Positions 19,134-44,027 of a stretch of 64,000 nt of DNA are shown here, piece by piece; position 1 is the first letter of the stretch; each line of letters opens with the position of its first letter. The notes beneath the pieces are model-generated. The model searched no databases. It saw nothing but the letters and a program-made list of their open reading frames with translations, and was not told the DNA's origin. The position numbers were made by a program, and so were the translations under genes. Origin of the DNA: Olivibacter sp. SDN3 (GTDB lineage: Bacteria > Bacteroidota > Bacteroidia > Sphingobacteriales > Sphingobacteriaceae); the NCBI RefSeq assembly GCF_014334135.1, contig NZ_CP060497.1, positions 1,984,001 through 2,048,000 of the forward strand. The letters run 5' to 3'.

Positions 19134-19514
19134 ATGAAACAAGCCATACATCACCCTAAACGCGCAGCGCACTTTGTAACGGGGGCTTACTCCGATGGTA
19201 TCGTTGCAGGAGATTTTTTGTTCGTTAGCGGACAGGCCGCAGTTGACTTTTCAAGCTCTCGCTTCATATTAGGAACCATTGAAGAAGAAACAGCACGCAC
19301 AATGGAAAATATACAAGCAATAGTTTCGGCAGCGGGGGCAAACATGGACGATGTGGTGAAGTGTACCGTTCATTTAAGTGATATTGCTGATTTTGATAGA
19401 TTCAATGAGGTATACAGTACTTATTTTTCTGATATAAAACCTGCACGGACCACCGTTCAATCGGTATTGGATGAAGGCATAAAAGTAGAAATCGATTGCA
19501 TCGTCAAACTATAA
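19134..19514 (+). CDS. RidA family protein (reactive enamine/imine deaminase)
   Basis: This 126-residue protein of the RidA/YjgF/YER057c family normally forms a cytoplasmic trimer that hydrolyses 2-aminoacrylate-type enamines and imines released by PLP enzymes or amino-acid oxidation. GDFLFVSGQAAVDF, ARTMENIQAIVSAAGANMDDVVKCTVHL and PARTTVQS are visible; the Arg in PARTTVQ is the conserved catalytic/ligand-binding arginine. Length is normal. It is the first gene of the plus-strand cluster, 9 bp before a dehydrogenase and close to a PLP aminotransferase, which fits a role in removing an unstable imine from the same pathway. Confidence 0.93.
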   Translation: MKQAIHHPKRAAHFVTGAYSDGIVAGDFLFVSGQAAVDFSSSRFILGTIEEETARTMENIQAIVSAAGANMDDVVKCTVHLSDIADFDRFNEVYSTYFSDIKPARTTVQSVLDEGIKVEIDCIVKL

Positions 19515-19523
19515 AAAAATCGA

Positions 19524-20531
19524 ATGACTAGTATAAAAGAGCAGGTAACTGTTGAGCAAATACAGATAGGTATAGTGGGATTAGGTTTAATGGGCTGTAG
19601 CATCGTGGTTTCATTATTAAAAGCGGGTCATCCGGTAGTTGCTATTGCTCCGGTGAAGGGCGAAGAAATAACCGCAGCCAAGCGTATCTATGAGCATTTG
19701 GAATACGCCAAATATGACGGTTTATTGGATGCGTCGATCGATTCTTATTTAGGGAAGCTGATGATCTCTACAGATTACAACACATTGGGGAAATGCGCTT
19801 TAGTAGTAGAGTGTGTAATAGAGCGAGAAGATATTAAGCAAATAGTATACGATAAGGTAGCGTCAATTGTCGCCAAAGATACCATCATTGCCTCCAATAC
19901 TTCAGCAATTCCTATTAGTCGCCTTCAGCAATATATTGCCGTTCCTGAGCGGTTTTTGGGAGTACATTGGGCAGAGCCAGCCTATACTACTCGTTTCTTG
20001 GAAATTACCTGTGGGCAAAAAACGTCTTTAGCAGTGGCTGAATGGGTTTATCAACTGGCCGGAAGTTGGGATAAGGAACCTACGTTATTGCAGAAAGATA
20101 TCAGAGGTTTTATAACCAATCGACTCATGTATGCTGTTTATCGCGAGGCTTTGCATTTAGTGGCAACTGATGCGACCTGCTTTGAAGATGCCGATAAGGC
20201 GTTTCGGTATGATTTGGGTTCATGGATTACCTTAATGGGCCTTTTTCGCCGGATGGATTTCTTGGGCTTGCAAGATTACGCTTTAATTTTCGAACAACTT
20301 TTTCCGCTACTATATAATGGAGAGGAGGTGCCTGGGGTGATGGAGCGGATGGTGGATTTAGGCGCCAAGGGCGTGCAGAATCTCCGTGGGTTTTATTCCT
20401 ATGACGAAAGTCAAGCAAAAGCTTGGATAAAAGCTTTTCATGCATTCAACCAAACCATATATCAACAAGCGGCACAGTATCCAGAAAGCAGACTGGAACA
20501 TGTGCTGGCCAGTAATACCTATGATGGATAA
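19524..20531 (+). CDS. 3-hydroxyacyl-CoA dehydrogenase-like NAD-dependent oxidoreductase
   Basis: This 335-residue protein has the two-domain 3-hydroxyacyl-CoA dehydrogenase fold: the NAD-binding GLGLMGCSIVVSLL near residue 18, the SNTS motif (ASNTSAIPISRL, about 121-124), the catalytic His148 in GVHWAEP with the partner Glu 12 residues later, and the helical C-domain starting GFITNRLMYAVYREALHLV. The HFFNP motif of true acyl-CoA enzymes is changed to HWAEP, so a non-CoA hydroxyacid or amino-alcohol substrate, as in carnitine or gulonate dehydrogenases, is more likely. It overlaps the following aminotransferase gene by 11 bp, suggesting translational coupling: oxidation of a hydroxyl to a ketone followed by transamination. 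Confidence 0.88.
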   Translation: MTSIKEQVTVEQIQIGIVGLGLMGCSIVVSLLKAGHPVVAIAPVKGEEITAAKRIYEHLEYAKYDGLLDASIDSYLGKLMISTDYNTLGKCALVVECVIEREDIKQIVYDKVASIVAKDTIIASNTSAIPISRLQQYIAVPERFLGVHWAEPAYTTRFLEITCGQKTSLAVAEWVYQLAGSWDKEPTLLQKDIRGFITNRLMYAVYREALHLVATDATCFEDADKAFRYDLGSWITLMGLFRRMDFLGLQDYALIFEQLFPLLYNGEEVPGVMERMVDLGAKGVQNLRGFYSYDESQAKAWIKAFHAFNQTIYQQAAQYPESRLEHVLASNTYDG

Positions 20532-21831
20532 AATAAGATATAAACAGTCGGCTATGCTGCTCCAACGGGCAAAGAAAGTGCTTGCCGGGGGCGTGTCATC
20601 CGAATTTAGAAAGTATAATCATCCGCATGCCCTTTTTTATACCCATGGAGAGGGGAGTCGCATATGGGATGTTGATGGTAACGTATATATAGACTTCACG
20701 TTAAGTCAGGGACCACTTTTGCTGGGACATTCCCATCCGGGGGTATTGGCTGCCGTTGCTGCATATTCAGCACAGGGGCAATTATTTGCCGGCCAGCATA
20801 TCAAAGAAGTGGAGTTGGCGGAAAAGCTAAATGCCTTAATCCCCTCGGCTGAATTGATTCGGTTTTGTTTAGACGGTTCAGAGGCTGTGCAGACGGCTTT
20901 GCGGGTAGCCCGTTCAAAGACAGGAAAATCCAAGTTTTTGCGGTTTGAGGGGCATTACCATGGATGGTTGGATAATGTGGCTTATGGTATCAGTGCAACT
21001 GGAGTAGAAGCAATGGGCTCAAGGGAGAAGCCAAGGGTCACCCCTTGGTGTGCCGGCTTGGCAGCCCAAAGTCGCGATGAATTTATCTTGCTGCCATGGA
21101 ACGATTTATCATTGTTGGAAGCTATCATAAAGGAGCGGCACGACGAACTGGCGGCCGTGATAACTGAGCCTATTATGTGCAATAACGGATGTATTTTGCC
21201 AGTACCGGGTTTCTTGGAGGGCTTACGTGCACTTTGTGACACCTATCAAATTGCCTTGATTTTTGATGAGGTGATTACCGGATTTCGTTTAGGTTTGGGA
21301 GGGGCGCAAGAACACTTCAGTATTCAACCCGATCTCGCCATTTTCGCAAAAGCAATTGGCAGTGGATATCCGATCAGCGCGGTTGTGGGAAGACAATCGT
21401 GGATGGCGGAAATAGAAGAGGGCCGGGTTATTCATGCCGGTACCATGAATAGTAGCCATGCAACCGTAGCGGCGGCATTGGCAACCATCGAAATTTTGGA
21501 AGAAGATCCCACCGTATATGTTCGGCTCTTTCAATTAGGAAAACAGTTACAGGAGGGCTTAAAAGAAGCTGCACGAGACACGGGGCATAGCATGCTGGTG
21601 CAGGGGCCAGGACCTATGCTACATACTGCTTTTACCGATTTATCATGTATCAACGATTATCGCGACACCCTCCAGACCGACGGGTCCAAGTTAAAGGCCT
21701 TTATAGCTGGCTTACATGATGAAGGTATTCGTGTGATAGGCAGAGGTTTGTGGTACATTAGTGCCGTTCACACCGAAGAAGACGTGAAGCAGGCCATTGA
21801 GGTTGCACATCGTGTATTAAGTAGGCTGTAG
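20521..21831 (+). CDS. Class III PLP aminotransferase, glutamate-1-semialdehyde aminomutase-like
   Basis: This 436-residue PLP enzyme resembles HemL: LLQRAKKVLAGGVSSEFRKYNHPHALFY at the N-terminus, LDGSEAVQTALRVAR (phosphate-binding region), FEGHYHGWLDN, FDEVITGFRLGLGGAQ and the PLP lysine in FAKAIGSGYP (Lys277). HemL-like proteins in catabolic clusters usually act as omega-aminotransferases or aminomutases on other substrates, so a haem role is doubtful. The ORF is open from 20440, but ATG 20521 (or 20524) starts just before the stop of the dehydrogenase gene and gives the family's normal N-terminus. With RidA upstream, the pathway clearly handles an amino group. Confidence 0.9.
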   Translation: MMDKIRYKQSAMLLQRAKKVLAGGVSSEFRKYNHPHALFYTHGEGSRIWDVDGNVYIDFTLSQGPLLLGHSHPGVLAAVAAYSAQGQLFAGQHIKEVELAEKLNALIPSAELIRFCLDGSEAVQTALRVARSKTGKSKFLRFEGHYHGWLDNVAYGISATGVEAMGSREKPRVTPWCAGLAAQSRDEFILLPWNDLSLLEAIIKERHDELAAVITEPIMCNNGCILPVPGFLEGLRALCDTYQIALIFDEVITGFRLGLGGAQEHFSIQPDLAIFAKAIGSGYPISAVVGRQSWMAEIEEGRVIHAGTMNSSHATVAAALATIEILEEDPTVYVRLFQLGKQLQEGLKEAARDTGHSMLVQGPGPMLHTAFTDLSCINDYRDTLQTDGSKLKAFIAGLHDEGIRVIGRGLWYISAVHTEEDVKQAIEVAHRVLSRL

Positions 21832-21872
21832 CGTAAAGAAATTAATTATATGAACATTTTTAGCGGCTTTTT

Positions 21873-22733
21873 ATGAAAGATATCCAATTGAAACAGCATT
21901 CCGTTATGGTCATTGGCGAGGGTAAATTGGCAGACAGCATAGCTGCATGTCTTCAGGAGAAACATGCCTTATCACGCTGTACATCGGCTGTAAACTTACC
22001 GCTCTCTATAGCTGAAGAATTGATCATCATCATTACGGCAGACCATCTTGAGCAGAAAGTCGATTGGATAAACGGTATACAGGAACGTATTCATCGAGAT
22101 GCTTTGCTTGCAATTAATCTGGAAGCCATATCCCTTCAAGCTTTGCAGGAAAAAGTGAGCTATCCCGAGCAGTTATTAGGTTTGAATTGGGTTTATCCTG
22201 CAGATACGACCTTCTTTTTGGAAATTATCCGTAATAAATCTACGCGTGAAGGAGCTGACTTGCTGGTGCATCGCTTAGCGAAGCAGTTTTGGAATAAAGA
22301 TCCTTATGTGGTACACGCCGGGTTTAGTATCCGTGCGAGAATGTTTGCCGCTATGGTTCGGGAAGCCTTCTATTTGGTAGAACATCAGTATGCAGACATT
22401 CAGAGTGTAGATAGAGCCTGTCGGAATGATGCCGGGTTTTACCTACCGTTCGCTGGGAACTTTCGTTATATGGATCTGATGGGACCTTATGCTTATGGCG
22501 TTGTGATGAAAGAGCTTAATCCGGAGTTGTCACAAGAACGGCAATTGCCCAATTTTTTCCAACAATTGTTGGCTAAAGGGGCATTAGGGATGGCCCATGA
22601 TGAAGGATTTTATTCTTATGGCGACGGTGAAGCGGCCCGATGGAAAACGCTATTTGCTAAATTCAGTAAAGAAATTCAAGAGATTATTCAGCGATATCCT
22701 TTTACAAGGGAAGATTTAACGGAAAAGTCATGA
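21873..22733 (+). CDS. Degenerate paralogue of the 3-hydroxyacyl-CoA dehydrogenase-like protein
   Basis: This 286-residue protein is a shorter relative of the enzyme at 19524-20531. Collinear features are VIGEGKLADSIAACL (Rossmann loop), LLGLNWVYPADTTFFLE (against LGVHWAEPAYTTRFLE in the paralogue) and GFSIRARMFAAMVREAFYLVEHQYADI. The catalytic His is replaced by Asn105 and the SNTS motif by INLE, while the partner Glu is kept. It probably lacks dehydrogenase activity and may be a regulatory or structural partner of the active paralogue, or use different chemistry. It begins 41 bp after the aminotransferase. Confidence 0.8.
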   Translation: MKDIQLKQHSVMVIGEGKLADSIAACLQEKHALSRCTSAVNLPLSIAEELIIIITADHLEQKVDWINGIQERIHRDALLAINLEAISLQALQEKVSYPEQLLGLNWVYPADTTFFLEIIRNKSTREGADLLVHRLAKQFWNKDPYVVHAGFSIRARMFAAMVREAFYLVEHQYADIQSVDRACRNDAGFYLPFAGNFRYMDLMGPYAYGVVMKELNPELSQERQLPNFFQQLLAKGALGMAHDEGFYSYGDGEAARWKTLFAKFSKEIQEIIQRYPFTREDLTEKS

Positions 22734-22747
22734 ACCCTATCAGGGTT
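22733..22747 (+). terminator. Small hairpin directly after the degenerate dehydrogenase
   Basis: AACCCT-ATC-AGGGTT forms a perfect 6-bp stem beginning at the last base of the stop codon. There is no T-run after it, so it may be a weak terminator or an mRNA-stabilising hairpin between two parts of the cluster. Confidence 0.3.
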
Positions 22748-22930
22748 AAATAACGTTATTCGCAGCGCTGTTTGTTTTAATCCATAATCCGCATTAGCTC
22801 ATGAAAATTCTGGATGTAAGCATAGGGCAATGACTAATTTAATAACGGATTTTTAATTTCGCTTTTGTGTTCATGAACCTTTCGGGGTTTTAGCAAAGAC
22901 TCCGTCTGACAAATAAAAGCATATAAACAG

Positions 22931-24022
22931 ATGAAACGATTAATCATAGATGCCCATTTGGATTTGGCCATGAATGCCATAGAATGGAACAGGGATCTTT
23001 CCAGACCTTTGGAAGAGATCCGGCAACGGGAGCTAAATATGCCTGATAAGCCCGACAGAGGTAATGGTACCGTTTGTTTTCCCGAATTGCGCCGAGGTAA
23101 GGTAGGGTTAGTGGTAGCAACACAGTTGGCCCGTGTAGCATCTCCCGGCAGTAAATTTGCCGGCTGGCATTCGCCCCAGCAGGCTTGGGCGATGACACAG
23201 GCACAATTAACCTGGTATCGTGAAATGGAGGTATTAGAGGAGTTGGTGCAGGTGACGGATCTTGCTGGACTTGAACAGCATATTGATTTATGGAACAGCG
23301 AGGCTATCCCAGATGAGCAAAAACCAATCGGTTATATATTAAGTTTGGAAGGCGCCGATTCTTTGGTGAATATCGATTATCTTTACAAAGCGCACGCCGA
23401 TGGTTTACGGGCAGTGGGGCTGTCTCATTTTGGTCCGGGAAGGTATGCACCGGGAACGAAGGCTGTTGGGCCTATTACGAGTGCGGGCCTACAGCTCCTT
23501 CGTGAAATGGCAAAGCTCCATCTCATACTAGATGTAACCCACCTGACCGACGAAGGCTTTGAGCAAGCGATCGACCTCTACGAAGGTCCTATATGGGCCA
23601 GCCATCATAATGTCAGGCGGTTTGTTCCCAACCAACGGCAGCTAACGGATGACCAGATCAAAAAGCTTGTCGCACGTGGGGCGGTCATCGGCGGGATGTT
23701 AGATTGCTGGGCGATGGATATACGGTTTATTGACGGGATATCAGATCCCTGGCAGTTGGATATTAAGTTAGCCAAGCTTGTGGATCATTGGGATCATATC
23801 TGTCAGATAGCAGGAAACTGTCATCATATAGGTGTCGGAAGTGATTTAGATGGTATTTTCGGTACGGAGCAAGCGCCTTGGGATATGCATTCTGTGGCAG
23901 ATTTACAACAATTCGAAGCTATCCTCAACAGTCGTGGTTACAAAGAAGAAGATATTGATCATATTTTTCACGGAAACTGGCTTCGCTTTTTAAAGCGAGC
24001 TTGGTCCACCGCCGATGCATAA
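22931..24022 (+). CDS. Dipeptidase, M19 (membrane dipeptidase) family
   Basis: This 363-residue zinc hydrolase of the M19/renal dipeptidase family has the metal-binding IDAHLDLA at residues 6-13, the bridging Glu in LSLEGADSL, His in LDVTHLTDEG and IWASHHNVR, and the terminal GSDLDGIFG motif. No signal peptide is visible, so it is probably cytoplasmic. M19 enzymes cleave dipeptides with a C-terminal D- or L-amino acid, and some open amides or lactams; the substrate here is unknown. It lies 197 bp after the previous gene and 7 bp before a ceramidase-fold protein, so these two may act together on an amide-bonded substrate. Confidence 0.88.
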   Translation: MKRLIIDAHLDLAMNAIEWNRDLSRPLEEIRQRELNMPDKPDRGNGTVCFPELRRGKVGLVVATQLARVASPGSKFAGWHSPQQAWAMTQAQLTWYREMEVLEELVQVTDLAGLEQHIDLWNSEAIPDEQKPIGYILSLEGADSLVNIDYLYKAHADGLRAVGLSHFGPGRYAPGTKAVGPITSAGLQLLREMAKLHLILDVTHLTDEGFEQAIDLYEGPIWASHHNVRRFVPNQRQLTDDQIKKLVARGAVIGGMLDCWAMDIRFIDGISDPWQLDIKLAKLVDHWDHICQIAGNCHHIGVGSDLDGIFGTEQAPWDMHSVADLQQFEAILNSRGYKEEDIDHIFHGNWLRFLKRAWSTADA

Positions 24023-24029
24023 CTAATAT

Positions 24030-25388
24030 ATGGCTAGAAATACATTGCGGGCAGGAGCCGCTCAAGTAGAAATTACGCCTCCCTTAGGAACCCTTATCAA
24101 TGGTGAATTCACTTCCCGTTATGCTACCGATATTGCAGATCCGCTCTATGCAAAAGCGCTCGTATTACAGGATTCACAAATGACGCTCGTATTGGTCATC
24201 GTAGATATCTGTGCTATGCAGCGTGATTTGCTTGATGAAATAAAAGAACGCATACAGGCAGAGCTAAGGATACTACCAGCGCAGACACTCATTGCCAGCA
24301 CGCATACCCATGCAGCAGGTTCGGTAGCCGACTTATTAATGACCCCGGTTGACTGGGCATACCGATTACGCCTGCCGAATTTAGTCCTGAATGCCGTGAA
24401 ACAAGCATTTCAGGGCATGGTCGAAGCACAGGTTGCCTTTGGCTCCGCACATGTTCCGGAACATGTGGTATGTAGACGTTATCGTATGCGGCAAGGGTAT
24501 AAGGCCCTTAATCCGGTAACCGGCACATTGGATGACGTAAAAACCAATCCTTTTGGTGACGAAGAAGCAATTGTTGGACGGGCTGCCGAGGTGGATACCG
24601 AAGTAGCCTACCTGGCGGTAAAAACTATAGACAATCAATGGATCAGCCTGATCGCCAATTATTCCCTGCACTACGTAGGCGATTGTGAAAGAGGTACGAT
24701 CAGTGCTGATTATTTTGGGTATTTTTCCCGTGAGCTCAAACAGATGTTTAACACCGGTCAATCGTTTGTTGCGATGATGAGCAATGGTACCAGTGGAGAC
24801 GTTAATATCTGGGATTTTATGAATACTAACCGATATCCTGAGGGGAATCATGAGAAAAGCCAGTTAATTGGTAAGGACATTGCCGGGGCTGTATATCGGT
24901 CGCTCGAAAACGTTAACTGGGAAACCTCGGCATCCTTAGCCTGTGGGTACGAAGATGTCTCCATTCGTTCGCGCAAAGCCAATGCGCAGGAATTGCGAAA
25001 AGCCTTGGTAATCGTGCGCCAAACCGATTATGAAAACCTTTCCTTAGACTTATCTGGCATTATAAGTATCTATGCTCGTGAACAGGTTTTACTATCCAAC
25101 TTTCCCGATGTAGTGCCTTTTCCTATACAGGCATTTCGGATAGGTTCGGGTGTTATCGGTGCTCTGGGTGGAGAGTTTTTTGCAGAAACGGGTTTGCAAC
25201 TAAAAAAAGAATGCCAGGGAAACTATTTCACCATTTGTTTGGCAAATGATTACGTTGGTTATGTCCCTCCCCTGCATGAGTTGGAAAAAGGGGGTTACGA
25301 AACCTGGCGTTGCCGTACCAGTAGACTGCAGGGACAGGCAGAAGCGCTCATCAGCGAACGTTTGCAGACAATAATCTCCAGTCTTTAA
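24030..25388 (+). CDS. Neutral/alkaline ceramidase N-terminal-domain protein
   Basis: This 452-residue protein matches only the N-terminal catalytic-domain fold of neutral/alkaline ceramidases: AGAAQVEITPPLGT at the start, ASTHTHAAG (metal-binding His), NYSLHYVGD and SNGTSGDVNIWDF near residues 251-263. In true ceramidases the nucleophilic serine lies in a (G)(N/D)xSPN motif; here the corresponding position appears to be Asn259 (GDVN). There is no signal peptide and no C-terminal Ig-like domain. It therefore is probably a cytoplasmic metal-dependent hydrolase with another substrate. It is 7 bp after the M19 dipeptidase, with which it is surely cotranscribed. Confidence 0.82.
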   Translation: MARNTLRAGAAQVEITPPLGTLINGEFTSRYATDIADPLYAKALVLQDSQMTLVLVIVDICAMQRDLLDEIKERIQAELRILPAQTLIASTHTHAAGSVADLLMTPVDWAYRLRLPNLVLNAVKQAFQGMVEAQVAFGSAHVPEHVVCRRYRMRQGYKALNPVTGTLDDVKTNPFGDEEAIVGRAAEVDTEVAYLAVKTIDNQWISLIANYSLHYVGDCERGTISADYFGYFSRELKQMFNTGQSFVAMMSNGTSGDVNIWDFMNTNRYPEGNHEKSQLIGKDIAGAVYRSLENVNWETSASLACGYEDVSIRSRKANAQELRKALVIVRQTDYENLSLDLSGIISIYAREQVLLSNFPDVVPFPIQAFRIGSGVIGALGGEFFAETGLQLKKECQGNYFTICLANDYVGYVPPLHELEKGGYETWRCRTSRLQGQAEALISERLQTIISSL

Positions 25389-25574: not shown

Positions 25575-28139
25575 ATGCAAGAATCTAATAGGCGAACGTT
25601 TATAAAAAAATTGGCGTTGGGAGGTGCCGTCATCTCCGCAGTGCCACACCAGCTAATGGCTGCTAAAACCGCAACTATATTTGACAAAAATAGTGGTGGG
25701 CATAAAAAACTTTTTCGCACTTCTTACACAGGCGAACAGTTACAAAGAATAGCTTTTCCGATAGGCGGTATGGGAGCGGGCATGTTTTGTTTAGAAGGTA
25801 CAGGGGCGATTTCTCATCTATCGATTCGCCATCGTCCTGAGATGTTTTTTGAACCGTGTGTGTTTGCTGCTATACGCATTAAAGGAAAAAAAAACGGTAC
25901 AAGAATATTGGAACAAAATGTTCCGGCCTGGAAGAAATTTGGACAAAAGAATGCTGCTCTAGGAGGTACAGACGGCAGTCACTGGGGGCTTCCAAGATTC
26001 CGGCATGCCGCATTCGAAGCCCAGTTTCCTTTCGCATCCATCACCTTAACCGATCCGCAAATGCCCCTTGAAGTATCGCTGAAAGGGTGGAGCCCGTTTG
26101 TCCCATCTGAGACAGACGATTCGAGCTTGCCGGTTGGTGCGTTGGAATACACTTTTAAAAATATGGGAACGGAGCCGGAAGAATATATTTTTTCGTACAA
26201 TGCGAAAAACGTTATTGCAGAACCAAAGGGTAATTCTTCTATCCGATCAAATAATAATGGTTTTACACTTTCTATGGACGGCATTGATGATAACCCTGAA
26301 AAGCAGGGTTATTTTACTGTTTACACGGATGATGAGGAACCTGTTGTCAAACATGCTTGGTTTCGTGGTTTTAGAAGAGACGCGCTATCCATGCTATGGA
26401 AAACACTTGGTGAGGATGAAATAAAGACCACTGCTGCTCTGGCCACAGATGCTCCTGGGGCGTCCTTGTTTATTCCATTTAAGCTGGCGCCGGGAGAGCT
26501 AAGGACCTTTAAGTTAATGTTTGCCTGGTATTTTCCAGAAACCGTCTTGCGGGAAGGTGACTCACATCCGGCTTATACCGAGCAGCAGACATCGGTAAGT
26601 GGGCCGAAATATTATAAGCCATGGTACAGTGTGCAATTTAAAAACATTGATGAGGTGGCTCATTATTGGAAAAAAAACTATGTACGATTATATGAGCAGA
26701 GTACCTTATTTAAAAAAGCCTTTTTTGATAGTACACTTCCAAGTGAAGTTTTAGAGGCGGTATCAGCCAACCTTTCTATTTTGAAATCGCCCACCATTCT
26801 CAGGCAACATGACGGCCGTTTATGGGCTTGGGAAGGTTGTGGGGATGACGTGGGTAGTTGCTGGGGTTCCTGTACCCATGTTTGGAATTATGCGCAGGCA
26901 TTGCCGCATCTCTTTCCAGATATGGAAAGGAGCTTTCGGGAAACCGAATTTCATGAAAATCAAGATGAAGAAGGGCATCAAGGCCATCGGGCGAATCTAC
27001 CGATCAGTCCGCTCCGATACAATTACCATATGAAAGCGGCTGATGGGCAATTAGGCGGTATCATGAAAGTTTACCGGGATTGGCGTATCTGTGGTGATAC
27101 AGCATGGCTCAGGGCTATCTATCCAAAAGTTAAAGCCAGCATGGATTATTGCATACGCGTTTGGGACCCAAAAAAATTGGGCGTGATGGAAGGCGATCAA
27201 CTAAACACCTACGATCAAGCTTTCTGGGGGCCGAATGGTATGTGCATGAGTATTTATTTGGGAGCACTAAAAGCTATGATTTGCATGGGGCGTTTTTTTA
27301 AGGATGATGTTCGCATTTACGAAGGGATTTTTGAGAAAGCAAAAGCTTATCTGGAGCAGCATCTTTTTAACGGAGCATATTTTGTGCAAGAAATAAACTG
27401 GCCCGGTTTAACAGATAAAGCAGAAAAAGGTGATCCCCGCTTCGTTGGGTCTTATACCGCAGATGAGCTGGAGATTGTCAGAAAAGAGGGGCCAAAATAC
27501 CAATATGGCGACGGTTGCTTGTCTGATGGTATTTTAGGAAGCTGGTTATCTGAAGTTTGCGGACTAGGAAATCCTGTCAATCCGGAAAAAGTAAAAAGTC
27601 ATTTACTTTCTGTTTATAAATACAACCAAAAATCAACTTTGCACAATCATGGCAACACACAGCGAGCCACCTATGCAAATGGAGAAGAGGCAGGTTTGGT
27701 GTTGTGTTCCTGGCCCAAGGGAAACCGGCTTTCCTTACCCTTTTACTATTGCGACGAAGTTTGGACGGGTGTAGAATACCAAGTAGCCTCTCACCTCATT
27801 TTTACGGACCGTCTGGAAGAAGGATTGGAAATTGTAAGAGCCTGTCGTAGCCGGTACGACGGTAGTATAAGAAACCCCTTCAATGAATATGAATACGGGC
27901 ATTGGTATGCACGGTCGCTGTCGAGCTATAGTTTACTGCAGGCCTTAACAGGTATACGTTATGATGCGGTAGATAACACCTTGTTTATTGATTCCAAGAT
28001 AGGCGATTTTACCGCTTTTATTGCGACAGCCACTGGATTTGGCCAAGTACATTTTTTTGATGGAGAACCTGCGCTTCAGGTGTTTTACGGTGATATCGTG
28101 GTAGAGAAGATTGTCATTTCGGGAAAGGAGATGGCGTGA
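25575..28139 (+). CDS. GH116 family glycosidase (GBA2-like), Tat-exported
   Basis: This 854-residue enzyme resembles the GBA2/DUF608 family GH116, which includes beta-glucosidases, beta-xylosidases and glucosylceramidases. The N-terminus SNRRTFIKKLALGG is a twin-arginine signal, so it acts in the periplasm. The N-terminal beta-domain (about 45-330) begins IAFPIGGMGAGMFCLEGTGA. The (alpha/alpha)6 catalytic domain has LWAWEGCGDDVGSCWGSC followed by THVWNYAQALPHLFPDMERS, and YDQAFWGPNGMC. Glu420 (WEG) and Asp547 (TYDQ) are the likely nucleophile and acid/base by position relative to GH116 enzymes. It precedes the SusCD pair and probably trims the imported glycoside. Confidence 0.88.
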   Translation: MQESNRRTFIKKLALGGAVISAVPHQLMAAKTATIFDKNSGGHKKLFRTSYTGEQLQRIAFPIGGMGAGMFCLEGTGAISHLSIRHRPEMFFEPCVFAAIRIKGKKNGTRILEQNVPAWKKFGQKNAALGGTDGSHWGLPRFRHAAFEAQFPFASITLTDPQMPLEVSLKGWSPFVPSETDDSSLPVGALEYTFKNMGTEPEEYIFSYNAKNVIAEPKGNSSIRSNNNGFTLSMDGIDDNPEKQGYFTVYTDDEEPVVKHAWFRGFRRDALSMLWKTLGEDEIKTTAALATDAPGASLFIPFKLAPGELRTFKLMFAWYFPETVLREGDSHPAYTEQQTSVSGPKYYKPWYSVQFKNIDEVAHYWKKNYVRLYEQSTLFKKAFFDSTLPSEVLEAVSANLSILKSPTILRQHDGRLWAWEGCGDDVGSCWGSCTHVWNYAQALPHLFPDMERSFRETEFHENQDEEGHQGHRANLPISPLRYNYHMKAADGQLGGIMKVYRDWRICGDTAWLRAIYPKVKASMDYCIRVWDPKKLGVMEGDQLNTYDQAFWGPNGMCMSIYLGALKAMICMGRFFKDDVRIYEGIFEKAKAYLEQHLFNGAYFVQEINWPGLTDKAEKGDPRFVGSYTADELEIVRKEGPKYQYGDGCLSDGILGSWLSEVCGLGNPVNPEKVKSHLLSVYKYNQKSTLHNHGNTQRATYANGEEAGLVLCSWPKGNRLSLPFYYCDEVWTGVEYQVASHLIFTDRLEEGLEIVRACRSRYDGSIRNPFNEYEYGHWYARSLSSYSLLQALTGIRYDAVDNTLFIDSKIGDFTAFIATATGFGQVHFFDGEPALQVFYGDIVVEKIVISGKEMA

Positions 28140-37556: not shown

Positions 37557-37593
37557 TTTATATTATTCAATATTGAGAAACGCATTTATTGCC

Positions 37594-38346
37594 ATGGAAA
37601 AGAAAGCAGAAGAAACCGTAAAGATGTCATTCGATAGGGATGGTTACGTATTTATTCCACAGTTTATGGATGCTCATACCTTTACGCAATTGAAGGAGAC
37701 CTTAGACAATTTTATCGAAAACATAGCCCCCGGTATGCCTGCAGAACATGCTTTTTATGAAGACCCGGTAGACCGGAAATCCCTGAAGCAAATGTTTCAT
37801 TTATCCGATTATGACCCTTTTTTTGCCCATTTGCTGCACGATAGTGATTTTAAAAAGTTAGCTGAGGTCCTGTTGGGTGAACCCATCGCCAAGGGATATG
37901 TAGAGTATTTCAATAAGCCTCCCGGTATTGGGCAAGCTACTCCACCACATCAGGATTGCTATTATTTTATGTTGACGCCACCACAGGCCATTACCTTTTG
38001 GATACCTATCGAAGATGTGGATGAGGAAAATGGTTGTTTGCGTTATGTGCGGGGGTCGCATGTGAAAGGGATGCGTCCACATGGCAGGAATAACACCTTG
38101 GGCTTTTCCCAGTGTATCGTGGATTTTGGAAAGCCAGAAGATATTGCCAATGAAATGCCTATGCACGCAAAGACAGGCGATATACTGGTTCATCATGGTA
38201 TGACCATTCATCGGGCGGATGGTAATCACAGTAAAACCCGTTCCCGAAGGGTAATAGGCTTGGTTTATTTTGGACAATCAGCCGTTGAAGATGTTGCGGC
38301 AAAAAAGGCCTATCAGGAAAAACTTAAAAAAGAAAGACAGGAGTAA
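37594..38346 (+). CDS. Phytanoyl-CoA dioxygenase (PhyH) family protein
   Basis: This ~250-residue non-haem iron, 2-oxoglutarate-dependent dioxygenase has the facial triad HxD in PPHQDCYYF near residue 120 and the distal His and Arg in LVHHGMTIHRADGNHSKTRSRR near 215-230. Family members hydroxylate fatty acyl-CoAs or many small molecules. A TTG start at 37573 is open, but ATG 37594 gives MEKKAEETVKMSFDRDGYVF, the usual FxxDGY beginning. There is no signal peptide, so it acts in the cytoplasm. In this cluster it probably hydroxylates a sugar- or lipid-derived intermediate; the substrate is not known. Confidence 0.87.
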   Translation: MEKKAEETVKMSFDRDGYVFIPQFMDAHTFTQLKETLDNFIENIAPGMPAEHAFYEDPVDRKSLKQMFHLSDYDPFFAHLLHDSDFKKLAEVLLGEPIAKGYVEYFNKPPGIGQATPPHQDCYYFMLTPPQAITFWIPIEDVDEENGCLRYVRGSHVKGMRPHGRNNTLGFSQCIVDFGKPEDIANEMPMHAKTGDILVHHGMTIHRADGNHSKTRSRRVIGLVYFGQSAVEDVAAKKAYQEKLKKERQE

Positions 38347-38354
38347 GTGTATCG

Positions 38355-39290
38355 ATGATTCGTTATATCCTTTTTGTAATGAGCTTGATTTACGCGTATA
38401 AGCTCCACGCGGGTACCGATCGTCTGGAACGATGCCGATCGGACCTTATACAGCTACTGCATGATGAGCAGGGCTGGATCAAGGTTCATGCAGCGGAATA
38501 CCTGCTGCAATTAGGGGAATATCGGGAGGGCATAGCATCGGTCTTTCATAAGGAAGATAGTCTATATGGAGATGTTCCAGCGTATCGCATAGGTATATGG
38601 CGAGTATTAGCACAGACTGATAATGAGGAAATACGCAGTAGCTACCTTGGGCGTATAAAAGCGGTCTTTTACGATACCAGCGCCAATGATCGCCTACACG
38701 CCATAGAAACCTTGGCTAAACTTCGCGAGCCCTTATCGCTAAAGGATTCTTTGGTTTCCGAGGCGTTGCAATCACGGCTAGTGCCCATGATGCTCTATAC
38801 TAAATGGAACGCGGCTTATCATAGCGTAGACATGCAACGGCAGGTTAGCGATGAACTGGCGATGATGTTACTCGATGGAAAATCCCGTTTATCGGTGGAC
38901 GAGCAGAAAACAGCCTGTTATGTCATCCGGCAATTAGATCGGTTGAGTATTAAATGTTGGCAGGCATTACATGATTTCGCACTATCGGAGCTATCGAATT
39001 CTCCGATAAAAGTAACCTTATATAGTACGCTTTACAAAACAAAACCAAGAGCAATAATCGATCGGGTATTAAAAAACGAACTGGAAGCGGTAGCTATTGA
39101 TAGTCCGGATGTCATAACGGTATTAACCGTTTTGTGTGCAAAGGGTTCGGCAGATGATCGTGCACATCTGGAGCGTTTTTACCTATCTTTAAGCAACCGG
39201 GCTTTGCCTCATTATGACGCAGATAAACATGCTGCGTCAGCTTACGCGTTGTATTCACTAGCATACCGCATTAAAATGAAAGAACAATGA
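38355..39290 (+). CDS. Secreted HEAT-repeat-like protein of unknown function
   Basis: This 311-residue protein has a short signal peptide (MIRYILFVMSLIYAYKLHAG) and an all-helical body with HEAT-like pairs: QLLHDEQGWIKVHAAEYLLQLGE, IWRVLAQTDNEE and DRLHAIETLAKLRE. No catalytic motif was found. Such proteins often act as scaffolds. Its start is 9 bp after the dioxygenase stop, and its TGA overlaps the next ATG (ATGA), so it is translated together with the MFS transporter. Confidence 0.7.
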   Translation: MIRYILFVMSLIYAYKLHAGTDRLERCRSDLIQLLHDEQGWIKVHAAEYLLQLGEYREGIASVFHKEDSLYGDVPAYRIGIWRVLAQTDNEEIRSSYLGRIKAVFYDTSANDRLHAIETLAKLREPLSLKDSLVSEALQSRLVPMMLYTKWNAAYHSVDMQRQVSDELAMMLLDGKSRLSVDEQKTACYVIRQLDRLSIKCWQALHDFALSELSNSPIKVTLYSTLYKTKPRAIIDRVLKNELEAVAIDSPDVITVLTVLCAKGSADDRAHLERFYLSLSNRALPHYDADKHAASAYALYSLAYRIKMKEQ

Positions 39291-40537
39291 ATAAAAGGAT
39301 ATATGCATGGCTGGTGGTCGTCTTGCTTTGTGTAGTTGGTTGTTTGAATTATTTGGACCGCACGATGATTACCACGATGCGTGCATCCATTATTCAGGCC
39401 ATTCCGATGACGGATGGGCAATTTGGGCTGTTGACGTCTGTTTTTCTCTGGACTTATGGTGCACTTAGTCCAATAGCTGGCTACCTGGCCGATCGCTTTA
39501 ATCGAAGTAGGGTCATAATAGCCAGTCTGTTCATTTGGTCGGCCGTTACCTGGCTAACGGCTTATGCCAATAGTTTTGAGCACTTGCTCATCACACGTAT
39601 TTTGATGGGATTCAGCGAAGCCTGTTACATTCCAGCAGCCTTGGCACTGATCATGGATTATCATCGGGGTGAAACCCGTTCATTTGCCAATAGTATGCAT
39701 ATGGCGGGTGTCATGGTGGGGCAAAGCCTGGGTTTTGTTGGTGGTTGGCTCGCTGAGCGCCATACCTGGAATTTTGCTTTTTTTATTTTCGGATTTATAG
39801 GAATGGGCTATGCACTCCTATTGCTGTTTACCTTGAAAGATGAACGAAAAGAAGAGGATGTGGTTGCTCACGTGTTACCCGTTCCGTTAGTTCCTTCAAA
39901 TGATGTGCGTTTCACGAAGGCCATCCGCGTACTTTTCAGTAATAAACAGTATCTTTTGGCTTTAGCTGCCTGGTGTTTACTGGGTATTGTGGGCTGGTTG
40001 ATTGTTGGATGGCTTCCAACTTATTTTAAAGAGCATTTTGCGTTGTCACAGACCAAGGCGGGTATTTATGCTACTGGGTATTTTCACACGGCTGCATTGA
40101 TCGGTGTGTTGGTTGGTGGCCTATTGGCCGATCGTTGGGCTAAGGTGCATCCCCGTGGCCGTATTTTGCTGCCCACTGTGGGACTGTTGGTTGCAGCGCC
40201 CGCTATCTATCTGGCAAGCACAACAAATATCTTGGCAGTGGCTATTTTTTGTTTCATGTTATTTGCCTTTACCCGTATTTTTACAGATGGTAACATGATG
40301 CCCATTTTATGTTTAATTACCGATAGGCGGTACCGGGCCACGGGTTATGGCGTACTGAACCTCTTCAGTTGTTTAATTGGTGGACTAGGTATTTATATTG
40401 GTGGTATCATGCGTGACGCGGCGATCAACTTAAGTGTATTGTTTCAGATAGCCACGCTTATCATATTGAGTTGTGCTTTCCTGTTATATAGGATAAGGCC
40501 TTCGTCGAGGTATGAAGAGTCAACAAAAATCAAATAA
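39287..40537 (+). CDS. MFS transporter, anion:cation symporter-like
   Basis: This 416-residue inner-membrane permease with 12 predicted helices belongs to the ACS branch that transports organic acids and sugar acids (hexuronates, galactonate). CLNYLDRTMITTMRASI in helix 1, FGLLTSVFLWTYGALSPIAGYLADRFNRSRVI and RILMGFSEACYIPAALALI are typical of that branch. Overlap of its ATG with the previous stop (ATGA) and the HpcH/HpaI aldolase 8 bp downstream suggest import of a sugar acid or oligosaccharide fragment for the oxidative module. Confidence 0.9.
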   Translation: MNKRIYAWLVVVLLCVVGCLNYLDRTMITTMRASIIQAIPMTDGQFGLLTSVFLWTYGALSPIAGYLADRFNRSRVIIASLFIWSAVTWLTAYANSFEHLLITRILMGFSEACYIPAALALIMDYHRGETRSFANSMHMAGVMVGQSLGFVGGWLAERHTWNFAFFIFGFIGMGYALLLLFTLKDERKEEDVVAHVLPVPLVPSNDVRFTKAIRVLFSNKQYLLALAAWCLLGIVGWLIVGWLPTYFKEHFALSQTKAGIYATGYFHTAALIGVLVGGLLADRWAKVHPRGRILLPTVGLLVAAPAIYLASTTNILAVAIFCFMLFAFTRIFTDGNMMPILCLITDRRYRATGYGVLNLFSCLIGGLGIYIGGIMRDAAINLSVLFQIATLIILSCAFLLYRIRPSSRYEESTKIK

Positions 40538-40544
40538 ATTAGCG

Positions 40545-41351
40545 ATGATGAGAAAAAGTACCGTTTTGGAAAAGCTTCGCAGTAATCAAAAGGCAAGTTG
40601 TTTTAAGGTAAACCTCAAAGACGCCCAGGTAGCCGAGATAGCGGCTATACAGGGTTTCGATTGCATTTGGGTAGACTTGGAGCACATCGGGCAGGACTGG
40701 TCGGTTATTGCTGCCCACGTATGGGCAACAAAGGCACACCGAGCAGATCTCATGGTACGGGTGCCAAGGGGAGCATACAGCGATTATATCCGACCTTTGG
40801 AACTGGATGCTACCGGTATTCTTGTCCCTCATGTGATGAGCCTCCAAGATGCCAAGGATATCATTTATCAAACGCGTTTTTTCCCTTTGGGACGTCGCCC
40901 GTTGGATGGCGGCAATGCCGATGCCGCGTATACGCATATCGGTTTAGATGAATACCTGTCCAGTGCCAATCGCGAACGCTTCATCGCTTTGCAAATTGAA
41001 GACCCCGAGCCTTTACCTGAATTGGAGGCTATAGCCCAGCTGGAAGGTTTTGATATGTTATTTTTTGGACCGGGAGATTTCAGTCAGGGTATCGGTGCTC
41101 CGGGGCAATGGGATCATCCTTTGCTCGTAGATGCCCGAAAGCGTGTAGCGGCCGTTGCCAATCAATATGGAAAATTTGCGGCAACGGTAGGCAGCCCCGA
41201 AACCCTGGAAAGTCTATTTGCGATGGGCTACCACTTGGTAAGCGTAGGAGCCGATGTAGTGGGGTTATCGCAGTATTGCCAACGCATGGCCGCAGCTTTT
41301 GTCGGTCTGGATTCGTCGGATACTACCGGAACCTATTATGAACGACCCTAA
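40545..41351 (+). CDS. HpcH/HpaI aldolase (2-keto-3-deoxy sugar acid aldolase type)
   Basis: This ~268-residue class II pyruvate aldolase has FDCIWVDLEHIGQDW near residue 40, LMVRVPRGAYSDYIRPLELDATGILVPHV, the catalytic/metal-binding LQIEDPEP and FGPGDFSQGIGAPGQ. Members cleave 2-keto-3-deoxy acids such as KDR, KDG or 4-hydroxy-2-ketoheptanedioate to pyruvate and an aldehyde. The ORF is open from 40512 within the MFS gene, but ATG 40545 (or 40548) just after its stop gives the usual N-terminus. With the aldo/keto reductase and dehydrogenases next to it, it is the likely final step of an oxidative sugar pathway. Confidence 0.9.
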   Translation: MMRKSTVLEKLRSNQKASCFKVNLKDAQVAEIAAIQGFDCIWVDLEHIGQDWSVIAAHVWATKAHRADLMVRVPRGAYSDYIRPLELDATGILVPHVMSLQDAKDIIYQTRFFPLGRRPLDGGNADAAYTHIGLDEYLSSANRERFIALQIEDPEPLPELEAIAQLEGFDMLFFGPGDFSQGIGAPGQWDHPLLVDARKRVAAVANQYGKFAATVGSPETLESLFAMGYHLVSVGADVVGLSQYCQRMAAAFVGLDSSDTTGTYYERP

Positions 41352-41364
41352 AAACTGAAGTACT

Positions 41365-42321
41365 ATGAAGCAAAGAAGATTAGGAAATACGGGTATAGAT
41401 GTATCTGAGCTCGCTTTCGGTGGAGTGGAGATTGGCATGCCTTATGGCCTGCATGCACAGGCAGGGGCGGCGGGGCTTATGGATGCTTCCAGTGCCATTG
41501 CTTTGTTACATCAAGCGCTAGATCGCGGGATCAATTTCTATGATACGGCGAGGCTCTATGGAAATAGTGAAGCGTTCATGGGAAAAGCCTTTGCCGGTAA
41601 GCGGTCGGCAGTGGTATTCGCAACGAAATGCCGTCACTTCAAGGATCCTGCTGGGCAGATTCCTGCATACGGACCTTTAAGGAAGCTGGTAGAGAGCTCC
41701 CTTCAGGAAAGCCTTAGAGCCTTGCAGACAGATTATATAGATGTCTTTATGGTGCATTATGCCGATCTGGCCATTTTAGAAAATGAAGACGTCCAGCGCG
41801 TTTTTACAGCGCTCCGTTCTGCAGGTACGGTACGGGCAATTGGCGTTTCCGTTTATGAACCTTCCGAAACTCAGCAAGCGTTGGAAGCGGGTTGTTGGGA
41901 CCTTATACAATTGCCATTCAATTTAATGGATCAGCGTCAACGGGTATTTTTTGACGAAGCTGCACGGCGTGGTATTGGTATTGTGGCTCGGTCGGTGCTC
42001 CTGCGCGGTTTGTTAAGTGACCGGAATGTCGATTGGCATCCAGCCTTAAAAAAAGTAGAGCAGCATATTGCTTCCTATCAGGCACTGGTTAGGCCACCAA
42101 TTCGGCATTTAGCTCAACTGGCTACCAAATTTGTCTTGAGTTATCCGGCTGTAACTTCGGTATTGGTGGGCTTAGACAAAGAAGAATATCTGGAAGAAGC
42201 TATTAGCACCGCGTTGGGTGATCATTTGGATGAGCATTTGTTCCAAAAGGCCATTGCGATGGCCTACCCGGATCCTGATTTTTTAAATTTGGCTAATTGG
42301 GATAGGAGGGGATGGATATGA
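41365..42321 (+). CDS. Aldo/keto reductase (aldose 1-dehydrogenase-like)
   Basis: This 318-residue NAD(P)-dependent oxidoreductase has the AKR tetrad: Asp and Tyr in INFYDTARLYG, Lys in VVFATKCR and His in IDVFMVHYAD. The N-terminus MKQRRLGNTGIDVSELAFGG is typical of AKRs of the L-galactose/L-fucose/D-arabinose 1-dehydrogenase group. It may oxidise an aldose to the lactone at the start of a non-phosphorylative pathway. Its 3' end overlaps the next gene by 4 bp (ATGA). No lactonase or sugar-acid dehydratase is present in the window. Confidence 0.88.
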   Translation: MKQRRLGNTGIDVSELAFGGVEIGMPYGLHAQAGAAGLMDASSAIALLHQALDRGINFYDTARLYGNSEAFMGKAFAGKRSAVVFATKCRHFKDPAGQIPAYGPLRKLVESSLQESLRALQTDYIDVFMVHYADLAILENEDVQRVFTALRSAGTVRAIGVSVYEPSETQQALEAGCWDLIQLPFNLMDQRQRVFFDEAARRGIGIVARSVLLRGLLSDRNVDWHPALKKVEQHIASYQALVRPPIRHLAQLATKFVLSYPAVTSVLVGLDKEEYLEEAISTALGDHLDEHLFQKAIAMAYPDPDFLNLANWDRRGWI

Positions 42322-43241
42322 TACGTTTAGGAATTATTGGGATGAGTGTTGGGAATGCACACCCTTATTCATGGTCGTCTATTATCAACGGTTCTTTTGA
42401 TCCGGCAGAGATTGCGCGTGTAGGTTATCCTGCGGTAGCCGCCTATTTGACAGCCAATGCCGATACCCTGGGCATTGATGGAACGCAGGTTACACACGTA
42501 TGGTGCCAAGAGGAGTCTGTTGCCCGTAGTATCGCACGGTCTGCTGCTATTCCACATGTGGTCAACCGGATGGAGGACATGATCGGCCATGTGGATGCGG
42601 TTATCCTCGCTCGGGACGATCCCGGTCAGCATATGCAGATGGCAAGCCCGTTTTTGGCTGCGGATGTTCCGCTATTTATCGACAAGCCCTTATCGGTAAC
42701 TATGGAAGAGCTGCATTGGTTTTCGCAGCAGGAAGCCGCTGGTAAATTCTTGATGTCCTGTTCGTCGATGCGCTATGCCGCAGAGTGCCGGACAGCCAAG
42801 ACATTTTTGCCGGCGTTGGGTGAGTTACAGCTGGTAACTGCCGTGGGGAAAAAAGACTGGACAACTTATGGTATACACATGGTGGAGGGGCTGTCTGGTA
42901 TGCTTGAAGACCCTTTACCCAAGCGGGTACAATATGTAGGTGCGCCCGATCGTGATATTGTGCTTGTCGATTTTGCCGCCGGTTTTACTGCATCCTTTCA
43001 TCTCTTTAAACACATATCGCCAACCTTTCAGTTTACTTTTTACGGTAAAGAAGGGTGGCATCAGGTAGAAATTCAAAATTCCTATATCATGTTTAAGGAA
43101 ACCATTCTTACTTTCGTGAAGTCTTTAAGGGCGAAGAGAGCCTTATTGTCTTTTACCAAGACCTATCGCGTCATCGAAATTGTATCTAAGGCCTTGGAAA
43201 GTAAAGCATTGAACGGTAATCCTGTGGTGATTCATCCTTAA
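42318..43241 (+). CDS. Gfo/Idh/MocA family oxidoreductase
   Basis: This ~307-residue NAD(P)-binding protein has the Rossmann start IRLGIIGMSVGNAHPYSW and the PLFIDKPLSV motif equivalent to the EKP motif, with Lys as catalytic/nicotinamide contact. The C-terminal alpha/beta domain is shorter than in many members (350-450 residues). ATG 42318 is chosen because AGGAGG lies 8 bp upstream; an ATG at 42312 gives two extra residues but sits too close to that site. It probably oxidises a hydroxyl, often C3 or C2, of a sugar or cyclitol in the cytoplasm. Confidence 0.87.
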   Translation: MIRLGIIGMSVGNAHPYSWSSIINGSFDPAEIARVGYPAVAAYLTANADTLGIDGTQVTHVWCQEESVARSIARSAAIPHVVNRMEDMIGHVDAVILARDDPGQHMQMASPFLAADVPLFIDKPLSVTMEELHWFSQQEAAGKFLMSCSSMRYAAECRTAKTFLPALGELQLVTAVGKKDWTTYGIHMVEGLSGMLEDPLPKRVQYVGAPDRDIVLVDFAAGFTASFHLFKHISPTFQFTFYGKEGWHQVEIQNSYIMFKETILTFVKSLRAKRALLSFTKTYRVIEIVSKALESKALNGNPVVIHP

Positions 43242-43250
43242 TATACACGT

Positions 43251-44027
43251 ATGCATATCCATAAATTATTAGACTTAACGAAGAAAGTTATCCTGGTTAC
43301 AGGTGGTTCAGGAAATTACGGTCGTAACATTGTAGAGGGGTTGGCAGAAGCAGGAGCAACGGTAATTACTACTTCCCGCGATTTATCCAGAGCAGCAAGT
43401 ACTGCAGCCACTTTTCGGGCTTCCGGGTATGCGGTATTTGCTTTAGCTGTTGATCAATCTGATGCTACGAGTATAAAGGAGTTGAAGGAAAAAATTTTGA
43501 CAGATTTTGGGCGTCTGGACGTTTTTGTAAACAATGCCGTGTCTAGACCAATGACGGGGTACAGTGCACCGGTGGATCAATTTGAAAAATCGATGCAGGT
43601 AAATGCTTCAGGGATGTTTCATTTATTGCGTGAAATGACTGATCTTATTGTAAACGCAGGAGGGGGAAGTGTGATTAATATTGCGTCTATGATGGGCGTG
43701 AGAGGTCCTGATCTTTCTAACTATGAAGGAACTTCCATGGGCAATCCTCCTCCAGACTATTTTTTTCATAACGCTGGACTTATTAATTTAAGTCGATATA
43801 TGGCCAAGGTCATGGCAGGGAAAAATATTCGCTTTAATTGCATCAGCCCAGGGGGATTATTTAATAATCAGCCTGCACGTTTTGTTGAAAACTATTGTAA
43901 AAAGGTTCCTTTGGGTCGTATGGCCAATGCAGATGATATCAAAGGTTTAGTTGTGCTACTGTCGTCAGATGCCGGTGCCTATATAAACGGCGAAAATATT
44001 CTCTTAGATGGAGGTATGCATGCTTAA
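43251..44027 (+). CDS. SDR family oxidoreductase with altered active site
   Basis: This 258-residue short-chain dehydrogenase has the cofactor motif TGGSGNYGRNIVEGL near residue 18, NNAVSRP, the catalytic serine region INIASMMGVRG and the C-terminal NGENILLDGG. The expected YxxxK is Y170-F-F-H-N174, so the catalytic lysine is replaced by asparagine. The rest of the helix (AGLINLSRYMA) is normal. It is 9 bp after the previous gene and ends the plus-strand cluster; its last 4 bp overlap the end of the convergent AraC gene. Confidence 0.88.
   Translation: MHIHKLLDLTKKVILVTGGSGNYGRNIVEGLAEAGATVITTSRDLSRAASTAATFRASGYAVFALAVDQSDATSIKELKEKILTDFGRLDVFVNNAVSRPMTGYSAPVDQFEKSMQVNASGMFHLLREMTDLIVNAGGGSVINIASMMGVRGPDLSNYEGTSMGNPPPDYFFHNAGLINLSRYMAKVMAGKNIRFNCISPGGLFNNQPARFVENYCKKVPLGRMANADDIKGLVVLLSSDAGAYINGENILLDGGMHA

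Follow-up and report, generated by a model that had tools for sequence, protein, structure and literature searches.

We analysed a stretch of 64,000 nucleotides from Olivibacter sp. SDN3 (positions 1,984,001 to 2,048,000 of contig NZ_CP060497.1, a single 6.1-Mb contig), hereafter the window, and describe here a cluster of 19 genes at 19134-44027. Judging from the gene order kept in its relatives, the cluster is very probably a single conserved system. We give an even chance to this system serving the utilization of a glycan that carries an N-acylated nonulosonic acid of the pseudaminic or legionaminic kind. Three leads point to a nonulosonic acid: the subfamily of a Gfo/Idh oxidoreductase, the kinship of the SusC, SusD and major facilitator superfamily (MFS) proteins, and the fold of two propeller proteins. 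Homology shows that the cluster encodes uptake by SusC/SusD and an MFS protein, two propellers of the sialidase fold, a regulator of the AraC family and a conserved, cytoplasmic-looking core, together with a pyruvate-type aldolase and redox enzymes. As uptake genes are present, we take the direction to be catabolic. A previous sequence-only reading of this DNA had proposed the uptake and breakdown of a nitrogen-containing, amide-linked or acylated glycoconjugate. The idea of one system held, the gene order being conserved across genera, while its leaning towards sphingolipids had to be given up.

Gene cluster and its conservation in relatives

The cluster is an unbroken run of 19 plus-strand genes from RidA to a short-chain dehydrogenase (open reading frame (ORF) listing, Pfam and NCBIfam scans), where twenty had been counted before, and an AraC-family gene is convergent to it at the downstream end. 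The genes are as follows.

Gene 1: 19134..19514, plus; RidA family (imine/enamine deaminase), conserved core; PF01042 102.9 bits, TIGR00004 113.7 against a cut-off of 106.25
Gene 2: 19524..20531, plus; active-looking 3-hydroxyacyl-CoA-dehydrogenase-family enzyme; PF02737/PF00725
Gene 3: 20521..21831 (start moved from 20440), plus; class-III aminotransferase, glutamate-1-semialdehyde aminomutase (GSAM)-like; PF00202 218 bits, hemL 339.9 against a cut-off of 527.3
Gene 4: 21873..22733, plus; gene 2 paralogue, degenerate; Asn in place of the catalytic His and no GxGxxG
Gene 5: 22931..24022, plus; M19 dipeptidase-family metallohydrolase, by eye without a signal peptide; PF01244 153 bits
Gene 6: 24030..25388, plus; ceramidase-like hydrolase, no signal peptide seen by eye; PF04734 40.7 against 32.1 bits
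Gene 7: 25575..28139, plus; glycoside hydrolase family 116 (GH116), twin-arginine-translocation-like signal by eye; PF04685, PF12215
Gene 8: 28361..31597, plus; SusC; TIGR04056 779.5 bits
Gene 9: 31599..33092 (start moved from 31527), plus; SusD, NanU-like; NanU model 269.5 bits, cut-off 425
Gene 10: 33161..34555, plus; BNR propeller, predicted sialidase fold; PF13088, structure model (pLDDT 76.5), Foldseek
Gene 11: 34562..36361, plus; GATase-like/DUF4350-like, exported by the look of its start; sub-threshold Pfam matches only
Gene 12: 36354..37556, plus; BNR propeller, homologue of Dfer_1899 of Dyadobacter fermentans (PDB 5hx0, 63% identical)
Gene 13: 37573..38346, plus; PhyH-family Fe/2-oxoglutarate oxygenase; PF05721 119.9 bits
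Gene 14: 38355..39290, plus; HEAT-like by eye, no Pfam match; in relatives the homologous region forms a fusion with a sodium:solute symporter
Gene 15: 39287..40537, plus; MFS transporter; PF07690
Gene 16: 40512..41351, plus; HpcH/HpaI-family aldolase; PF03328, solved relatives
Gene 17: 41365..42321, plus; aldo/keto reductase (AKR); PF00248
Gene 18: 42312..43241, plus; Gfo/Idh oxidoreductase of a nonulosonate-linked subfamily, by its neighbours and the motif GN[AG]HPxSWxxIxNG
Gene 19: 43251..44027, plus; short-chain dehydrogenase (SDR); PF13561, best NCBIfam model NF006619 at 171.8 of 255 bits
AraC-family regulator: 44024..44902, minus, convergent; PF12833, recurs in related loci

Two starts were moved downstream (the aminotransferase to ~20521, SusD to ~31599), since the longer ORFs probably begin at spurious starts. 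At 11 of the 18 junctions, neighbouring genes then overlap or stand no more than 10 bp apart, in agreement with the many overlaps and short gaps reported earlier. Three gaps of 186-221 bp precede M19, GH116 and SusC, which leaves room for several transcription units. A search for the Bacteroidetes promoter consensus from 17 to 46 kb of the plus strand gave no strict match and one relaxed match within gene 11. All the families named earlier were matched in the Pfam/NCBIfam scans, and the 3-hydroxyacyl-CoA-dehydrogenase family of genes 2 and 4 had gone unnamed. SusC adjoins SusD with GH116, BNR propellers and AraC nearby, as in a SusCD polysaccharide utilization locus.

To follow the cluster in relatives, gene 6 was searched for in 201 family genomes, source genome included. 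Matches of at least 52% identity were found in 11 other genomes, the next match dropping to 37%, and the four other genomes of the same genus shown had none. Some 40 kb around the match were inspected in each of the 11 genomes. The order of genes 2 to 6 was identical in ten of them, with RidA preceding in nine; the eleventh (G111) kept gene 6 alone of these five. A profile of the M19 clade of gene 5 was also run against a named genome collection, and the best 80 loci were divided into 26 close ones (at least 68% identity, L064-L089) and 54 distant ones (56-62%). The 11 family genomes and the 80 loci have at least four genomes in common: L066 and L085 repeat the loci of G057 and G195, and G077 and G108 contribute further loci as L093 and L107. 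The six-gene core, that is RidA, the 3-hydroxyacyl-CoA-dehydrogenase-like enzyme, the GSAM-like aminotransferase, the degenerate dehydrogenase paralogue, M19 and the ceramidase-like protein, was complete with order and strand kept in at least 19 of the 26 close loci and in none of the distant ones. Likewise, HpcH-AKR-Gfo-SDR was contiguous in at least 11/26 close loci (0/54 distant) and lay upstream of RidA in ten. These counts of core and HpcH-SDR block are minima because some loci end at contig edges. In the window the SusCD block sits between the core and the HpcH-SDR end, and the upstream position in those ten loci indicates that both ends of the cluster belong together. The conservation of gene order that the earlier reading had put up for checking was thus borne out for the core and for HpcH-AKR-Gfo-SDR, and not for the SusCD/propeller block, which is reshuffled among relatives.

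The close loci include those of Dyadobacter, Larkinella, Spirosoma, Runella, Parapedobacter, Sphingobacterium, Pleomorphovibrio and Lunatimonas. Gene 5 is 69-77% identical to seven aligned relatives, gene 3 is present in 21 of the close loci and in none of the distant ones, an AraC-family regulator occurs in 14 close loci and in three of the 11 family genomes, and gene 11 in four of the latter. Among the distant loci, a parallel set was seen in L098 (8977-21068; partly in L092 and L094), with a gene-2-like dehydrogenase, M19 at 60%, a GH109-like protein, a sub-threshold fucose-isomerase match, a class-III aminotransferase, a DeoC/LacD aldolase and, by eye, a transporter and a sugar kinase; this is perhaps another amino-sugar route. 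The set also holds c57 (L098:12555-14885 and orthologues), a protein of ~770 residues that recurs in both kinds of locus; a 776-residue member had no Pfam match, and its best PDB sequence match was at E 0.077.

Leads towards a nonulosonic acid

The first lead is the Gfo/Idh subfamily of gene 18. With gene 18 as query, matches were found in 6/395 genomes of a phylum sample; with the more distant relative from G400 as query they were found in 5/395, and in 10/395 of a class-level sample overlapping the first. Once G000, G232 and G357, which carry the window-type system, were set aside, all eight remaining members found at E <= 1e-20 lay in nonulosonate-type biosynthesis loci (G289, G400, G627, G642, G680, G762, G780, G807). 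PseC, PseG and PseI exceeded the NCBIfam cut-offs in L157, as did PseC and PseI in L158, where PseG fell slightly short; PseF was under its cut-off in both. The other six loci were assigned by BLAST similarity to the L157 proteins, the weakest assignments being L175 (PseI-like 32%, PseC-like 28-30%) and L178 (PseC-like 44%, contig end). An AKR stands immediately upstream of Gfo in six of these eight loci and an SDR immediately downstream in four, L178 and L180 ending at contig edges, so that the AKR-Gfo-SDR order of genes 17-19 recurs in three (L157, L176, L179). The best of six plasmid records matching gene 18 was from Halorussus, where Gfo directly follows an SDR and its neighbours are annotated as acylneuraminate cytidylyltransferase, NeuB and NeuC. 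The motif given for gene 18 was present in 24 of 25 aligned rows, Halorussus being the one without it. In the tree, the catabolic Gfos form one group (support 98/99).

The second lead comes from the transport genes. On the NanU model gene 9 reaches 269.5 bits, where two other SusDs of the window stay at 26 and 42; it ranks second in a genome with 105 SusD-model matches, of which a single other one reaches 260 bits. Of the 28 paralogues of gene 8, the two best (39% and 38%, then 33%) come from the same pair of sialidase-bearing loci as the two nearest paralogues of gene 15 (40% and 38%, then 31%), of which the first is the MFS protein of the sialic acid locus. The first of these loci encodes a dihydrodipicolinate synthase (DHDPS)-family aldolase, which its context suggests to be an N-acetylneuraminate lyase (NAL), with NanM, a GlcNAc-2-epimerase, a BNR protein with the RIP motif, and GH20; the second has two BNR proteins with this motif. 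The genome thus has ordinary-looking sialic acid loci, of which the window locus is, in its transport genes, a divergent sister. Among the substrates suggested earlier, sialoglycans come nearest, the evidence leading to bacterial-type nonulosonic acids instead of N-acetylneuraminic acid (Neu5Ac), which has its own ordinary-looking locus elsewhere in the genome. As for gene 14, its homologous region makes up one protein with a sodium:solute symporter in L155 (5160-7595, by Pfam) and in L080 (780-3296, 34% to L155 over 786 residues), which suggests that gene 14 works with an inner-membrane importer.

The third lead is the propellers. For the model of gene 12 (pLDDT 83.9), the best 50 of 1157 Foldseek matches were 5hx0, one entry titled as a designed protein and otherwise sialidases. 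Those listed for the gene 10 model were 5hx0, the same designed-protein entry, sialidases, one GH93 arabinofuranosidase and the Pseudomonas pseudaminidase 2w38. Genes 10 and 12 are therefore predicted to have the sialidase fold.

Proposed route, counterweights and rival substrates

Within the core, gene 2 retains GxGxxG and the Ser/Thr, His, Glu and Asn residues in 46/46 rows, as an active 3-hydroxyacyl-CoA dehydrogenase does. Gene 4 does not: Asn replaces the catalytic His in 33/33 rows and GxGxxG is lost, Glu being retained. The alignment comprised paralogues from core loci with rows of more than 230 residues, two genomes being entered twice, and the catalytic roles of these residues are those we presume for the family. 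Gene 4 may have been conserved as a degenerate subunit, or it may catalyse a different reaction. It was seen even in L076 and L079, with M19 and a D-threonine-aldolase-like (D-TA) protein, where genes 2 and 3 were not seen. Gene 3 is below the cut-off of the GSAM equivalog. In gene 6, H92, H94, H214, E382 and Y411 are invariant in 20/20 sequences, and we take them to be metal-ligand-like. Nine of the 11 family genomes have the pyridoxal-phosphate enzyme D-TA in the same stretch, usually after gene 6. The one member scanned matched PF01168 and PF14031, and the nearest solved relatives are D-threonine aldolase and D-serine dehydratase.

From these elements a route can be proposed. The propellers would free the nonulosonic acid from the glycan and the MFS protein would import it. 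AKR, Gfo and SDR would then oxidise or epimerise the sugar, funnelling epimers, much as pseudaminic acid is modified at C8 by enzymes of the AKR and SDR families. HpcH would split off pyruvate, or in some relatives a DHDPS-family protein, whose gene is present in G057, G108 and G161, three genomes in which the stretch showed no HpcH gene. The remaining 2,4-diamino-2,4,6-trideoxyhexose would be oxidised to an acid that is at once an alpha-amino, a beta-hydroxy and a gamma-amino acid. The steps after the formation of this acid, and their order, are conjecture: M19 and the ceramidase-like gene 6 might strip its two N-acyl groups, the GSAM-like aminotransferase and the D-TA-like enzyme of relatives might take the two nitrogens, gene 2 might oxidise the beta-hydroxyl, assisted by a non-catalytic gene 4, and imines might be cleared by RidA. 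On chemical reasoning, the enzyme classes (for beta-hydroxy acids, alpha-amino-beta-hydroxy acids and gamma-amino acids) would fit the proposed diamino acid. If the locus encoded this full route, from release through the diamino acid, it would be the first pathway seen to break down the diamino nonulosonic acids of bacteria (pseudaminic, legionaminic or their epimers); this is a tentative proposal, with the balance of chances against it.

Several observations weigh against a nonulosonic acid substrate or against parts of the route. The propellers share the fold of GH33 sialidases in their predicted models, and not the RIP-motif arginine, which is replaced in 10/10 aligned gene 12 rows; the motif [FY]R[IYF]P was absent from all 11 gene 12 rows (one without its N-terminus) and all nine gene 10 rows, and is present in three sialidase-like proteins of the two sialidase loci of the genome. 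Aligned to a sialidase with hhalign, the propellers gave local matches only. The HpcH family confers no substrate specificity, gene 9 is under the NanU cut-off, and the nonulosonate activity of the locus enzymes is putative. Gene 17 is 23-30% identical to the adjacent AKRs of the Pse loci, and gene 19 25-27% to the adjacent SDRs, values that count as weak because the two families are so large; two other SDRs (L175, Halorussus) are 34-36% identical to gene 19. In the SDR tree, where branches are long, the SDRs that adjoin Gfo in four Pse loci join a second SDR of the relatives (97/93) and fall outside the clade of gene 19. A weaker match to gene 18 in G213 (33% over 179 residues, E 2.6e-20) lies outside any nonulosonate locus; it was not recovered with the Pse-locus query from G400. 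L080, L082 and L084 (Cyclobacterium, Pleomorphovibrio, Lunatimonas) lack genes 2-4 yet have aldolase, AKR, Gfo, SDR, RidA, M19 and the ceramidase-like gene, so genes 2-4 are dispensable in some loci. Finally, no D-TA gene was found in the window cluster, a single copy with 46% identity being elsewhere in the genome.

The alternative that survives best keeps the single catabolic system and changes the sugar. AKR, Gfo and SDR would have been recruited for general ketose/aldonate redox, and the substrate would be a different sugar, either acidic and amine-bearing or of the deoxy-amino type, such as the amino-uronic acids or 2,4-diamino sugars of bacterial capsules, or an acid like 3-deoxy-D-manno-octulosonic acid (Kdo) or 3-deoxy-D-lyxo-heptulosaric acid (Dha). 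Core and AKR-Gfo-SDR trio would be conserved whatever the sugar, the propellers lack the RIP arginine, the HpcH family spans many 2-keto-3-deoxy acids, and some distant M19 loci have a different sugar route, with the GH109-like protein, fucose-isomerase match, aminotransferase and DeoC/LacD aldolase described above. Against it, transport proteins and Gfo subfamily independently indicate nonulosonates, and we consider this alternative possible while rather unlikely.

Salvage of D-amino acids from glycopeptide or peptidoglycan-like material, in which M19, the D-TA-like enzyme and RidA would free and deaminate D-amino acids with the sugar genes merely attached, appears improbable. It fits the occurrence of RidA, D-TA and M19 together on annotated Parabacteroides (with a gluconate:H+ symporter) and Hymenobacter plasmids, and the frequency of D-TA in the distant M19 loci (22/54). 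However, the close M19 clade is linked instead to genes 2-4, 6 and 16-19 with D-TA in 8/26, and scans of the cluster matched no peptidoglycan hydrolase family. It is very improbable that two or more unrelated units (RidA to the ceramidase-like gene; the SusCD block; HpcH to SDR) stand side by side by chance: the three longer gaps and the varying order of the SusCD/BNR block would agree with this, whereas the core adjoins the HpcH-SDR block with order kept in other genera in 10/26 loci. Breakdown of gangliosides, glucosylceramide or sphingolipids, towards which the earlier reading leaned, and for which GH116 (as glucosylceramidase) and PF04734 (gene 6 as ceramidase) stand in one cluster, is hardly credible and was rejected, because GH116 is found in none of the 11 family genomes (~40 kb each) and none of the 80 named loci, and gene 6, although it passes PF04734, is far from a canonical ceramidase (14.8 against 1200 bits on the NCBIfam neutral ceramidase equivalog, no visible signal peptide).

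Other candidates were set aside. Use of a vitamin B6 glucoside was considered, as the best model for gene 2 is a pyridoxal-pathway dehydrogenase, but at 163.5 bits against a cut-off of 500, and no further B6 family was among the cluster matches; carnitine or fatty-acid use had a shared enzyme family and nothing more. The neighbours of the aminotransferase on two plasmids gave no lead. The cluster has a GC content of 0.45-0.47 and its surroundings 0.38-0.46, a comparison that tells little about horizontal transfer. In G108, some 22 kb (L061-L062) contain eight ceramidase-like genes that are 23-35% identical to gene 6, and SusC/SusD-like genes are interspersed. The cluster is flanked on the minus strand by divergent genes at 12314-18812 (TonB-dependent receptor, sugar transporter, mannose-6-phosphate-isomerase-like cupin, ROK kinase, cupin glucose-6-phosphate isomerase) and, past the AraC gene, at 45005-49359 by a GH2 beta-galactosidase-like protein and a 3-keto-disaccharide hydrolase domain protein.

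Known systems and significance

The locus resembles the nan/NanOU loci of Bacteroidetes in its NanU-like SusD, related SusC and MFS proteins, sialidase-fold proteins and pyruvate-type aldolase. It differs from them in that its 19 genes have no match to NanA, NanE, NanM or GH20 and instead include the HpcH aldolase, dehydrogenases, amidases and an aminotransferase, the nan-like locus being elsewhere in the genome: the DHDPS/NAL-family aldolase and GlcNAc-2-epimerase, without a match among the 19 genes, are both in L181. With the pseudaminic/legionaminic-type biosynthesis loci (PseC-PseF-PseG-PseI) it shares the Gfo subfamily with its motif and, in the three loci mentioned, the AKR-Gfo-SDR order; unlike these, it has uptake genes and no match to PseC, NeuB or a cytidine monophosphate (CMP)-transferase among its 19 genes. 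According to a study on Acinetobacter (PMC12053666), nonulosonic acids are epimerised there at C8 by EpaA and EpaB, of the AKR and SDR families, for pseudaminic acid, and by AciE for acinetaminic acid. An AKR domain plus an SDR are also the families of genes 17 and 19; the likeness is one of family, EpaA carrying a cytidylyltransferase domain and the pair having no Gfo. The RidA-D-TA-M19 set of Bacteroidota (Parabacteroides, Hymenobacter) has RidA and a homologous M19 (53-56%) in common with the locus; its two annotated stretches lack class-III aminotransferase, ceramidase-like and AKR-Gfo-SDR genes. Titles and the first lines of abstracts, covering the literature in part, gave no description of the gene set or of pseudaminic/legionaminic acid breakdown, in line with the earlier statement that no described system with such a combination was known. 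We regard the locus as a real, conserved utilization system of which no prior description was found, and give equal chances for and against its substrate being nonulosonate-like.

Pseudaminic and legionaminic acids decorate the flagella and capsules of many bacteria. If the nonulosonic acid reading is true, such Bacteroidota could graze on the capsules and flagella of other bacteria. The locus supplies candidate enzymes for releasing or remodelling pseudaminic/legionaminic sugars, and the always-paired active and degenerate dehydrogenases of genes 2 and 4 pose a second clean problem. A defined gene set, conserved in Dyadobacter, Spirosoma, Runella, Larkinella and Parapedobacter, makes nonulosonate catabolism directly testable.

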